Of a stretch of 64,000 bases of DNA, positions 57,985-61,066 are shown one piece after another. The notes below the pieces were generated by a model that did not search any database, was not told where the DNA came from, and saw only the letters and a program-made list of their open reading frames with translations. Every line of letters starts with the position of its first letter. The stretch's first letter is position 1. The stretch is taken from NCBI GenBank assembly GCA_902362595.1, contig CABIXF010000001.1:127714-191713 (forward strand). Reading direction: 5' to 3'. This DNA is from Bacteroidaceae bacterium. Its GTDB lineage: Bacteria > Bacteroidota > Bacteroidia > Bacteroidales > Bacteroidaceae. The translations under genes were made by a program, and so were the position numbers.

Positions 57985-58446
57985 TTATTTGAGTTTAAGA
58001 ATCCGCTGGTTGCTGCTTCCACAAAAGTCGAGAAAAGGAGAATAGAGCGACTCGATGAAAGGACCGTCCACCAGCACATGGATGTAGGGGAGGAGTTCTT
58101 TGCGTTCCGGGTCCTGAAGGAGCTGTTCGTAGGTGTAGCCCGTATAGCACCAGATGTGCATTCCTGTGCGCTGGCTGATGGCTTTCAGTACCGGGAGAAA
58201 CTCTTTCGGGTTGTAGAAAGGGTCTCCTCCCGAGAAAGTCACTCCGTCGAGCAACGGATTGGCATTGATTTCCTGAATCATCTGCTCCAGTACTTCCGGT
58301 GTGAGTGGTTTCCCGGCCCGAGGGTTCCAGGATTCCGGGTTGTGACAGCCCTTGCAACGGTGGCTGCATCCGGCCAGGTAGATGGAATACCGGATGCCCT
58401 CTCCGTCGACAATGGTTTCTGGATATGTATATAAATAATGTAACAT
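57985..58446 (-). CDS. nrdG: Anaerobic ribonucleotide reductase activating protein (radical SAM)
   Basis: A 153-residue radical-SAM activase that installs the glycyl radical on NrdD. The iron-sulfur cluster cysteines are Cys27, Cys31 and Cys34 (CSHRCKGC). [21 protein letters not shown] and [13 protein letters not shown] are typical of the family. ATG 58446 is used; the codon just upstream is GTG. It lies 15 bp after nrdD in one operon, so it shares control by the upstream cobalamin riboswitch. Confidence 0.95.
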
Positions 58447-58461
58447 CACTCGTAAAAAGGG

Positions 58462-60846
58462 TTATGCATGCTTTACACGGTCACGCTCTTCCGCCCGCTT
58501 GGCCGAGTTCCAACTGTTGAGGTCGCCTGTCAGGTAACCTGTGATGCGGCGCATGCGCAGGATGTTCTCCCCGTTACATACCGGGCAGCGGCTGTAGATA
58601 ACTCCCTTGTAACCGCAGTCGTGGCAGGTGTCTACTGGATGGTTGATGGAGCCGTAGCCAATCTGTTCGTCGTGCATCACCTTGACAATCTTGGCGATGG
58701 CCTTCACGTTCTTCTGCGCTTCTCCATCCAGTTCCACGTAGGTGATGTGGCCGCCTCTGGTCAGGGCATGGAAAGGAGCTTCCCGCTTGATTTTCTCTAC
58801 AATCGTAATCGGCTCCTTCACGTCCACATGGAACGAATTGACATAGTAGTCGCGGTCGTTCACTCCTTCGATGAGGCCGTATTTTCGTTTGTCCATCCGG
58901 GTGAAACGGCCGGAAAGTCCTTCTGCCGGGGTAGCCAGCACGGAATAGTTCAAACCGTATTTCTGCTTATAAGCCTCCGCTACTTTGTTCATTTCTTCTA
59001 CGGCTGCATAGAGCGTTTCCCAGGCTTTCGGATTATGCCCGTGTCCCTGTCCGTAGAGTGCCACCATGGCGTTGTGCCCTCCGATGAAGCCGATGCCCAA
59101 GGTACCCTGGTTCAGCACGTCGCCCACCTCCTCATTCGGATGACGCTGTGCACCGCCTTTCCATACGTTGTTGCCCATCATGAACGGGAACTGCCGGGCG
59201 AGGGCCGTACGCTGGTATTGGTAGCGGGTGTATAATTGCTCGGCAATGAATTCCGCCATGGAGTGAACCGACTGGAGGAAGAATTCCTTGGCTTTTTCTA
59301 GACGATTTTCTGGAGTTTCGTCCACAAAAGCTTCCGCTTTGCGATGCGCTTCGATGGCCAGTCGCGGCAGGTTCATGGTCGTGAAAGAAAGATTGCCTCG
59401 TCCCAGTGAGGTCTTTTCTCCGTGCAGGTTCTCGAACACACGGGTACGGCATCCCATGGTCGCCAGCTCGTAGCGGTAGCGTTTCGGGTCGTCGGCCCGC
59501 CATTTCTCGTGCGTGTTGAAAGGGGTGTCCAGGAACATGAAGTTCGGGAACAACGCCTTGGCCGTGGTGCGGCAAGCCTGCAGGAAGAGGTCGAAGTTCG
59601 GACATTCGAAAGTCACCTTTCCTTCAAGGGCCGCTTCAAAGTCCTGCATGGCCAGCTGGTAGTCGGCATCGGAATAAGTCACCCCGTTTTTGACCTTGAA
59701 AATCTGAATCGGGAACACCGGTACCTCTCCGTGGTTGCCCAAGCCTTCGATGGTGGCTTTCAACAGTTCCTGAATGACCATTCTTCCCTCAGCCGAGGTG
59801 TCGGTACCGTAATTGATGGAACTGAAAACCACCTGGTTTCCTCCGCGGGAATGCATAGTGTTCAGGTTGTGGATGAAACCTTCCATGGCTTGGTGCGTGT
59901 CTTTGCGGGTCTGTGTCAGCGTCTTGCGCAACGCGTAGTCCAGTTCTTCCTGTGTCAGCGTAAGGCCTTGGTTTGCCAGAAAGCTGAGGTAAGTAGTACG
60001 TGTTTCTTCTCCGGCTTCGATGCCCTGGAAATGCGTACGTATGCCTTTGAGGATTTCTTTTTCGTCGGTTTCTATTCCCTTGAGGTCGAACAACAAGCTG
60101 AGGAGTGTGGCCAGGATTTTCTGGAAACTCTTCAGTACCCCTTTGGCCATGAAGAAGTCGAAGGCCGGAATAGCCTGTCCTCCATGCTGTTCGTTCTGGT
60201 TGGTCTGGAAGATGATGGTGGACAGGGTAGCATAGCTCTGGATGGACTGCGGCGTACGGATGCTGCCGTTTTTGGTATGGAAACCCCGTTCGAATAGGTC
60301 GTCCAGGTCGTACTGGATACAAGTCGTCGTTTTAGTGGGGTAATAATCTAGGTCGTGAATGTGGATGTCGCCCAGCTGGTGTGCCTCGGCATACTGCTTG
60401 GGTAGCAAATATTTGTAGGTGTAATCCTTGGTGATTTCAGAAGCGAACGTCATCATCTGTCCGGCCGGCGTATGACTCGACATGTTGGCGTTGCTCAGGT
60501 TCACATCGTTCTTGTCGATGGCCACGATGCCGTCCATGATGTGCTTGATACGCGTCTTACGCTCCCGTTCAGTGTTACGCCACTGGCGGTAGATAATGTA
60601 TTTCTTGGCCACCTCCGGCTGTACCTTCATCAGTTCGTTTTCCACGAGGTCCTGGATATCTTCCACCCCGATGGTCTGTTGGGTGAAATGCGACACTACC
60701 TGCCGGGTGATACCTTCTATTTCCTCCTCCTGGAAGTCGATGCCGGTTGCCTTGAACGCTTTACCGATGGCATTGGTGATTTTGGCGGCCGAAAAGTTCT
60801 CCTGCTTTCCGTCGCGCTTGATGATACGGATTTCTGTCAGATTCAT
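58462..60846 (-). CDS. nrdD: Anaerobic (class III) ribonucleoside-triphosphate reductase
   Basis: A 794-residue glycyl-radical enzyme that makes deoxyribonucleotides without oxygen or vitamin B12. An ATP-cone domain (about 5-95, IIKRDGKQENFSAAKI) senses ATP/dATP. The catalytic barrel follows. Near the end a zinc site (CHDCGYKGVIYSRCPVCNG) precedes the radical Gly770 in RRITGYLTGD. ATG 60846 fits the family; an in-frame extension to 60945 would run into the riboswitch and is rejected. Its leader contains a cobalamin riboswitch, so expression is probably low when B12 is available. nrdG follows. Confidence 0.96.
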   Translation of the reverse strand: MNLTEIRIIKRDGKQENFSAAKITNAIGKAFKATGIDFQEEEIEGITRQVVSHFTQQTIGVEDIQDLVENELMKVQPEVAKKYIIYRQWRNTERERKTRIKHIMDGIVAIDKNDVNLSNANMSSHTPAGQMMTFASEITKDYTYKYLLPKQYAEAHQLGDIHIHDLDYYPTKTTTCIQYDLDDLFERGFHTKNGSIRTPQSIQSYATLSTIIFQTNQNEQHGGQAIPAFDFFMAKGVLKSFQKILATLLSLLFDLKGIETDEKEILKGIRTHFQGIEAGEETRTTYLSFLANQGLTLTQEELDYALRKTLTQTRKDTHQAMEGFIHNLNTMHSRGGNQVVFSSINYGTDTSAEGRMVIQELLKATIEGLGNHGEVPVFPIQIFKVKNGVTYSDADYQLAMQDFEAALEGKVTFECPNFDLFLQACRTTAKALFPNFMFLDTPFNTHEKWRADDPKRYRYELATMGCRTRVFENLHGEKTSLGRGNLSFTTMNLPRLAIEAHRKAEAFVDETPENRLEKAKEFFLQSVHSMAEFIAEQLYTRYQYQRTALARQFPFMMGNNVWKGGAQRHPNEEVGDVLNQGTLGIGFIGGHNAMVALYGQGHGHNPKAWETLYAAVEEMNKVAEAYKQKYGLNYSVLATPAEGLSGRFTRMDKRKYGLIEGVNDRDYYVNSFHVDVKEPITIVEKIKREAPFHALTRGGHITYVELDGEAQKNVKAIAKIVKVMHDEQIGYGSINHPVDTCHDCGYKGVIYSRCPVCNGENILRMRRITGYLTGDLNSWNSAKRAEERDRVKHA

Positions 60847-60882
60847 TTTTCTGTAAATTAAAGAGTGAGACATAAATTTAGG

Positions 60883-61053
60883 CTTTCCCGGGCAGGTCTT
60901 CTGACTGATCTCTCGCCGTAGACGCCTTCCCATGAGTGGGCTCACAGTGGCTTGCAGAGCGTGTCACGGTTTCCACAAGAATCACAGCAGCAGGTACTGT
61001 CGCCGATTTGCACGGCATTCCCTTTTGAAACGGTTAAGTTACCTTCGGAAAAG
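60883..61053 (-). promoter_or_regulatory. Cobalamin (B12) riboswitch in the nrdD leader
   Basis: Read on the minus strand, this 171-nt element has the conserved parts of the cobalamin riboswitch in order. They are the closing stem P1 (61053-61046 with 60890-60883, eight pairs with one G-U), AAAAGGGAA (61026-61018), GTGCAAATC (61013-61005), CTGCTGCTGTGAT (60993-60981), the B12 box GCCACTG (60951-60945), ATGGGAAGGC (60933-60924), and GTCAGAAGACCTGCC (60905-60891). The nrdD ATG is 36 nt downstream with no T-run between, which suggests control of translation. Binding of adenosyl- or methylcobalamin should lower NrdD-NrdG synthesis. Confidence 0.95.
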
Positions 61054-61058
61054 TGAGA

Positions 61059-61066
61059 CAAAGATA
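61059..61066 (-). promoter_or_regulatory. -7 promoter element of nrdD-nrdG
   Basis: The minus-strand TATCTTTG is a perfect TAnnTTTG match. The predicted transcription start, near 61053, coincides with the first base of the riboswitch P1 stem. A perfect 8-bp inverted repeat (AATTTAGA 61095-61102, TCTAAATT 61109-61116) lies just upstream and could be an additional operator. The remaining part of the 471-bp gap up to 61262 shows nothing else. Confidence 0.65.

Follow-up and report, generated by a model that had tools for sequence, protein, structure and literature searches.

B12 elements in front of nrdDG, in genomes that also carry NrdJ, were published in 2004 for Desulfovibrio vulgaris and Desulfuromonas together with a proposal of the same regulation (PMC545781, in the part of that paper accessible to us), so that a riboswitch with this isozyme logic is of an already known kind, and the remark in the initial annotation of the present locus that B12 riboswitches precede B12-independent isozymes in other bacteria agrees with the literature. 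How such an element senses occupancy is described in the accessible portion of PMC10653944, according to which a kissing contact forms between L5, an aptamer loop with the consensus UCCCG, and L13, the loop of a downstream hairpin, P13; the working pairs in Priestia megaterium metE are CCG in L5 with CGG in L13, and three pairs sufficed there.

The locus analysed here lies in a 64-kb stretch of DNA from a Bacteroidaceae bacterium (the window), with all of its features on the minus strand. The sole match above an Rfam gathering score within the window was to RF00174 (Cobalamin), at 61061-60876, with 89.4 bits against a gathering score of 31.5, E 9e-21 and coverage of model positions 1-189, confirming over its full length the cobalamin riboswitch that had been claimed upstream of nrdD-nrdG. 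The aptamer so delimited (60876-61061) includes 8 unpaired leading bases and contains the L5 core CCUG at 60991-60994 and, within the RF00174 match, the core GCCACTG at 60945-60951, which we take to be that of the B12 box. At 61066-61059 the box TATCTTTG, read from the sequence, fits TAnnTTTG, which is presumably the −7 box of Bacteroides, in agreement with the earlier placement of P1 at the predicted transcription start. In each of 50 riboswitch loci, those of the window and 49 relatives (23 of the coding type defined below, window included, and 27 of the UTR type), TAnnTTTG was present within the 60 nt around the P1 start, compared with 3 of 237 control pieces taken further upstream.

The riboswitch immediately precedes nrdDG in the same orientation, with 29 nt of leader (60847-60875) between the end of the aptamer match and the nrdD start; a simple scan of this strand revealed no intrinsic terminator between aptamer and start codon. 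nrdD (58462-60846) encodes an oxygen-sensitive class III anaerobic ribonucleoside-triphosphate reductase of 794 aa (NF005497, 1091.5 bits, cut-off 764) and is followed after 12 nt on the same strand by nrdG (57985-58449), which encodes the 154-aa radical SAM protein that activates NrdD (TIGR02491, 179.7 bits, cut-off 126.1), so that both genes exceed the curated cut-offs for a class III enzyme. The nrdD start codon is backed by relatives; an in-frame ATG at 60873-60871 was rejected as the start since the equivalent stretch of L001 and L002 hits a stop before the shared ATG. A direct repeat, TGTCTCACT, occurs at the mRNA start (61060-61052) and again directly after the aptamer (60872-60864), the second copy being part of the stretch of the in-frame ATG (60873) and not kept in L001 and L002.

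To place the locus among its relatives, one genome per named species was scanned and the best 80 of 171 nrdD loci were kept, the closest NrdD relative being Bacteroides mediterraneensis (97% identity). A riboswitch precedes nrdD in 62 of these best 80 loci; 60 were found by a profile built from the Rfam-found aptamers of eight relatives and the window (L062 weakly), and Rfam, run on 17 of the 20 loci without a profile match, added L063 and L064. Of the other 18, the upstream sequence is too short in three (L016, L056 and L058), and L071, with its riboswitch about 2 kb upstream of nrdD, was counted as without. A search of eight riboswitch-less relatives for aptamer remnants, with E values up to 10 allowed, yielded no match to RF00174, and on a quick NrdD tree riboswitch presence has to change five times, mostly next to relatives that bear one.

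Comparison with the distribution of nrdJ supports the isozyme logic put forward in the initial annotation, namely that NrdD is off when NrdJ is usable. All eight relatives searched carry nrdJ over the TIGR02504 cut-off, the closest relative included, and the window's own strain presumably does so too; no riboswitch was found near nrdJ in eight genomes of relatives. Within the best-80 set, in which 79 of the 80 loci were searched (all except L026), nrdJ exceeded the cut-off in 58 of 61 loci with a riboswitch compared with 11 of 15 assessable loci without (p 0.025), the three exceptions being L031 and L057, where nothing was found, and L060, where nrdJ is in two pieces. L057 has also lost CCCG from L5, which, with nrdJ not found in its draft genome, could reflect decay after loss of nrdJ.

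The link recurred in an independent set of 60 Bacteroidales genomes with an NF005497 NrdD over the cut-off, 12 drawn from an order sample of 80 genomes and 48 of 83 from a family sample (from the remainder of which 22 were already in the best-80 set and 13 were mostly lower-scoring). Rfam, applied to up to 1 kb upstream, placed a riboswitch on the nrdD strand in 19, and nrdJ was present in 19 of 19 genomes with a riboswitch before nrdD compared with 25 of 41 without (p 0.0011), the 41 including L152 (divergent riboswitch) and L128 (about 390 nt upstream). Two of the 16 nrdJ negatives, G385 and G399, have part matches of 268-273 bits, and counting them as positive gives 27 of 41 (p 0.0026). Pooling both sets gives p 1e-6, a value to be read with the relatedness of the genomes, which are not independent, and with the fact that drafts can miss nrdJ. 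These genome comparisons support the view that the riboswitch in front of this B12-independent class III reductase gene switches between isozymes. Across the order sample, NrdJ was over the cut-off in 72 of 80 genomes and an NF005497-type NrdD, the only NrdD type searched, in 12 of 80.

Cobalamin riboswitches also precede other reductase genes in this group. A class Ia NrdA (NF009028, 859 bits in a cut frame) lies behind one in B. fragilis (L105), and likewise, by coordinates, in P. vulgatus. A further class III enzyme, of TIGR02827 type, follows a riboswitch in P. vulgatus (L088; 560.6 bits in a cut frame, cut-off 568.3) and, assigned to that type by its first residues, in B. faecis (L107). 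A CGGG hairpin stands just behind the aptamer at L105, L107 and L088. In such a genome, the reductases that do not need B12 may form a single B12 regulon.

In 82 riboswitch loci (the window, the 62 of the best-80 set and the 19 of the independent set) we searched for hairpins with a loop complementary to the L5 of the same locus, and they fell into distinct positions. In 27 of the 82, the window and 26 related loci, the hairpin lies within the open reading frame (coding type); in the window it is proposed to occupy nrdD codons 12-19, at 60811-60790 on the minus strand (CGGAAAG-CAGGAGAA-CTTTTCG), spanning +36 to +57 from the A of the AUG, with a putative L13 core, CAGG (60801-60804), made of codon 15 and the first base of codon 16 and complementary to L5 CCUG. 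Another 27 loci, Bacteroides-like, are of the UTR type, with a hairpin (ACTTT-CGGGAGTT-AAAGT, the loop identical in 26) that abuts the start codon, and nine are of a far type, with the same loop directly behind the aptamer some 150-210 nt before the gene. The remaining 19 are more distant loci, of which L062, L067, L078, L079, L153, L160, L173, L174 and L177 have some hairpin of varied quality and place, and L057, L063, L064, L068, L076, L131, L134, L171, L172 and L178 have none, or an L5 that was unparsed or misparsed; inspection by eye shows a CGGG hairpin behind the aptamer of L131 and of L134. L021, which has a hairpin at both places, was counted as coding type, and the coding hairpins of L047 (misparsed L5) and L050 (one stem mismatch), for which the script gave none, were entered from the sequence. 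All 23 riboswitch-bearing tree rows of two Phocaeicola-type clades are of the coding type, and L021 stands beside one of these clades. By eye, the loci with a far aptamer (L136-L140, L142, L019, L022 and L024) show a further hairpin-like sequence before nrdD, possibly for termination and not for translation control. The interval first annotated, 60846-61066, thus holds promoter box, aptamer and leader and is probably short of the whole element, whose possible extension into nrdD had been missed.

We consider it likely that the nrdD-nrdG mRNA begins with a riboswitch of the adenosylcobalamin type which, with its L13 in the coding sequence, turns nrdDG off through a B12-bound kiss. Transcription would start just after the TATCTTTG box, so that the aptamer would be made first. 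With B12 bound, L5 CCUG would kiss L13 CAGG of P13 inside the nrdD frame, in the window species and its Phocaeicola relatives, folding the aptamer over the start region so that ribosomes could not load; nrdDG would be off and dNTP synthesis would fall to the B12-dependent NrdJ. Lacking B12, the kiss would fail, the AU-rich leader would stay open and NrdDG would be made. Binding of the ligand is likewise predicted, and the sign of the response (repression) and the step (an initiation block rather than termination) are modelled on known members of the family. Two points count against this reading: P13 starts at +36, past the stretch that a 30S subunit usually covers, and the kiss comprises 4 bp.

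A possible though rather unlikely alternative is that B12 acts mainly on transcription, with exclusion of ribosomes leading to Rho-dependent termination or decay of the nrdD mRNA and the coding hairpin serving as an attenuator. The accessible parts of two reports favour it, one describing a coding-sequence attenuator and Rho at E. coli btuB (PMC11162775) and the other a roughly 70-fold drop in transcript through a B12 riboswitch of Bacteroides thetaiotaomicron (PMC6143338), but the simple scan that found no intrinsic terminator on this strand speaks against it. Rho-dependent termination could possibly also accompany the preferred initiation block, as its consequence.

The placement of L13 within the coding sequence was examined in several ways. 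Because hairpin position defined the groups, it follows in part from the definition that 27 of 27 coding-type loci complement their own L5. The grouping did not presuppose the formation of all six inner stem pairs in 26 of the 27 or the state of the same ORF site in the UTR-type loci, where complement and stem were each found in 0 of 27; in far-type loci the complement was found in 0 of 9 and the stem in 6 of 9. In an alignment of the 27 coding-type loci (23 distinct), 95.3% of cells pair, compared with at most 69.2% when the alignment is slid, and four pairs changed on both sides, one of them in L5-L13 (C-G to U-A) and the other three in the stem, at third codon positions where the changes are synonymous. 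The alignment beat all 500 shuffles in paired cells, in cells changed on both sides and in covariation score, and 497 of 500 in pairs changed on both sides; in "further pair types" it stayed lower than any shuffle, and 11 of 23 rows leave the outermost stem pair unpaired. The co-variation supports the pairing without proving it, because the structure was derived from the same sequences and third positions can drift together. A hairpin loop that complements its own L5 and co-varies with it is thus present, by sequence, within the ORF.

It is improbable, in our estimate, that the aptamer represses nrdDG while the coding hairpin is an accident of ATP-cone codons, the real platform being another leader structure or shielding of the start codon by the aptamer. 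Such an accident would be favoured by the conserved protein motif that the hairpin site encodes, KRDGKxExFS, and by synonymous shuffles, 1.3% of which attain the hairpin score of the window (0 to 4.8% across 26 loci, each against its own score). Codon choice speaks against it: Arg-15 is CGG in 21 of 21 loci (the other five of 26 having Gln CAG), compared with CGG in 1 of 26 at Arg-11, four codons upstream, and in 12.3% of Arg codons in coding-type nrdD genes, and at codon 15 of 30 comparison loci (27 UTR-type and three far-type) CGG occurs in 0 of 30. The ORF complement missing from all 27 UTR-type loci and the compensatory changes at synonymous sites likewise argue against an accident. At codon 15 of the same 30 loci, Arg is encoded by AGA in 25 and AGG in two, although AGA accounts for 7% of the Arg codons in those genes, as if a second CGG loop were avoided.

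A partner within the leader would serve the same alternative, and the window's leader does offer three complementary bases out of four (CAG, 60853-60851); the first three, as many as sufficed for the kiss in P. megaterium metE, are present in 7 of 26 leaders, that of the window among them. The full 4-nt complement of L5 is absent from 25 of 26 leaders, the exception, L005, having it in the stretch next to P1, which argues against the leader as the site of L13, and an L13 in the window's leader, which lacks CAGG, was accordingly rejected. Nine relatives in which no riboswitch was detected (including L016, which has just 121 nt upstream and is not assessable) keep CGGG in seven, the stem in six and both in five (five of eight if L016 is set aside), as an accident would allow; in the one deeper riboswitch-less clade (L007, L009 and L012) stems are broken in two of three. 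Retention can be explained by recent loss of the riboswitch, and protein constraint or ancestry alone can also keep the hairpin. Further against an accident, P. vulgatus, a coding-type species, keeps the CGGG hairpin just behind the aptamer of its second class III gene. The partial circularity of the grouping, together with the leader's three of four complementary bases, slightly lowers the odds that we give to a coding L13.

The deviant L5 of the window offers a further comparison. Among the 82 loci the L5 core is CCCG in 69, CCUG in six (the window, L001, L002, L003, L144 and L174), another sequence in two (L057 and L153) and not parsed in five. A CAGG hairpin accompanies CCUG at each of these six loci, within the ORF at five and, independently, in the UTR at L174, whose nrdD is unlike the others; in the aligned rows CAGG accompanies CCUG in 5 of 5 and CGGG accompanies CCCG in 22 of 22. 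The coding-type CCUG-CAGG loci are one clade and hence count as one evolutionary event, which weakens their weight as evidence for a coding L13. Among 399 family genomes six contain the exact CCUG pattern, four being the window's clade and two, L188 and L189, having CCUG aptamers before another gene, which by eye encodes a btuB-like receptor and whose leader contains a CAGG loop (by script for L189; by eye and with stem mismatches for L188). L5 variants of the form C[AGT]CG were found in 0 of 399 family genomes with a pattern that needs two bases before the core and so misses shorter loops, and CC[AGT]G in 1 of 393 order genomes, the closest relative, with a pattern that misses shorter loops such as that of L174. 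That the riboswitch of the window's clade is decaying, with an L5 off the CCCG consensus and a gene no longer under B12 control, would fit the six CCUG loci among 82 and the loss of the riboswitch from several relatives but is very improbable given 89.4 bits over the full model, a riboswitch kept in five clade loci (window, L001, L002, L003 and L144) and an L13 change that matches the L5 change.

We lean, by a modest degree of confidence, towards a lock that in Phocaeicola has moved into the coding sequence of its own target, within the ATP-cone motif at nrdD codons 12-19, where residue 15 (Arg CGG or Gln CAG) would follow the aptamer sequence. Since such a lock would be transcribed only after the start codon, a race on each mRNA between ribosome and lock would follow: a ribosome arriving first would melt the lock and leave the gene on, and a B12-bound aptamer that met L13 first would close the start site. 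An L13 in the ORF looks new; a search of the open-access literature, with most subscription papers and all supplements outside its scope, found no L13 in a coding sequence. In gut bacteria, the locus would make it depend on vitamin supply whether DNA precursors come from a B12-dependent or a B12-free route, and the known isozyme logic is here tested across Bacteroidales genomes. If the coding placement is true, searches confined to leaders miss part of such riboswitches, regulation would be lost from reporter fusions that stop at the start codon, and a residue of the protein varies together with a loop of the RNA.

Compared with known systems, in the accessible parts of the reports cited, the locus resembles those of Desulfovibrio vulgaris and Desulfuromonas, which have the same gene pair, riboswitch family and proposed logic, with NrdJ elsewhere in the genome (PMC545781), although these belong to another phylum (delta-proteobacteria) and that text does not discuss where L13 lies. 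Cobamide riboswitches of B. thetaiotaomicron, of the same bacterial order, have been shown to repress on B12, but their targets are mainly transport loci (PMC6143338, PMC8941943). In env8 and E. coli btuB a ligand-stabilised structure blocks ribosome loading, as we propose here, and the early coding sequence of btuB is needed for transcript repression (PMC11162775), whereas the env8 and btuB hairpin holds the ribosome binding site and lies upstream of the AUG, unlike that of the window (PMC10907184, PMC11162775). As in P. megaterium metE, where a B12-independent isozyme is repressed, L5-L13 pairing would sense occupancy; L13 of metE lies in the leader and feeds a terminator (PMC10653944), whereas the putative L13 of the window lies in the reading frame and pairs with an L5 of CCUG.
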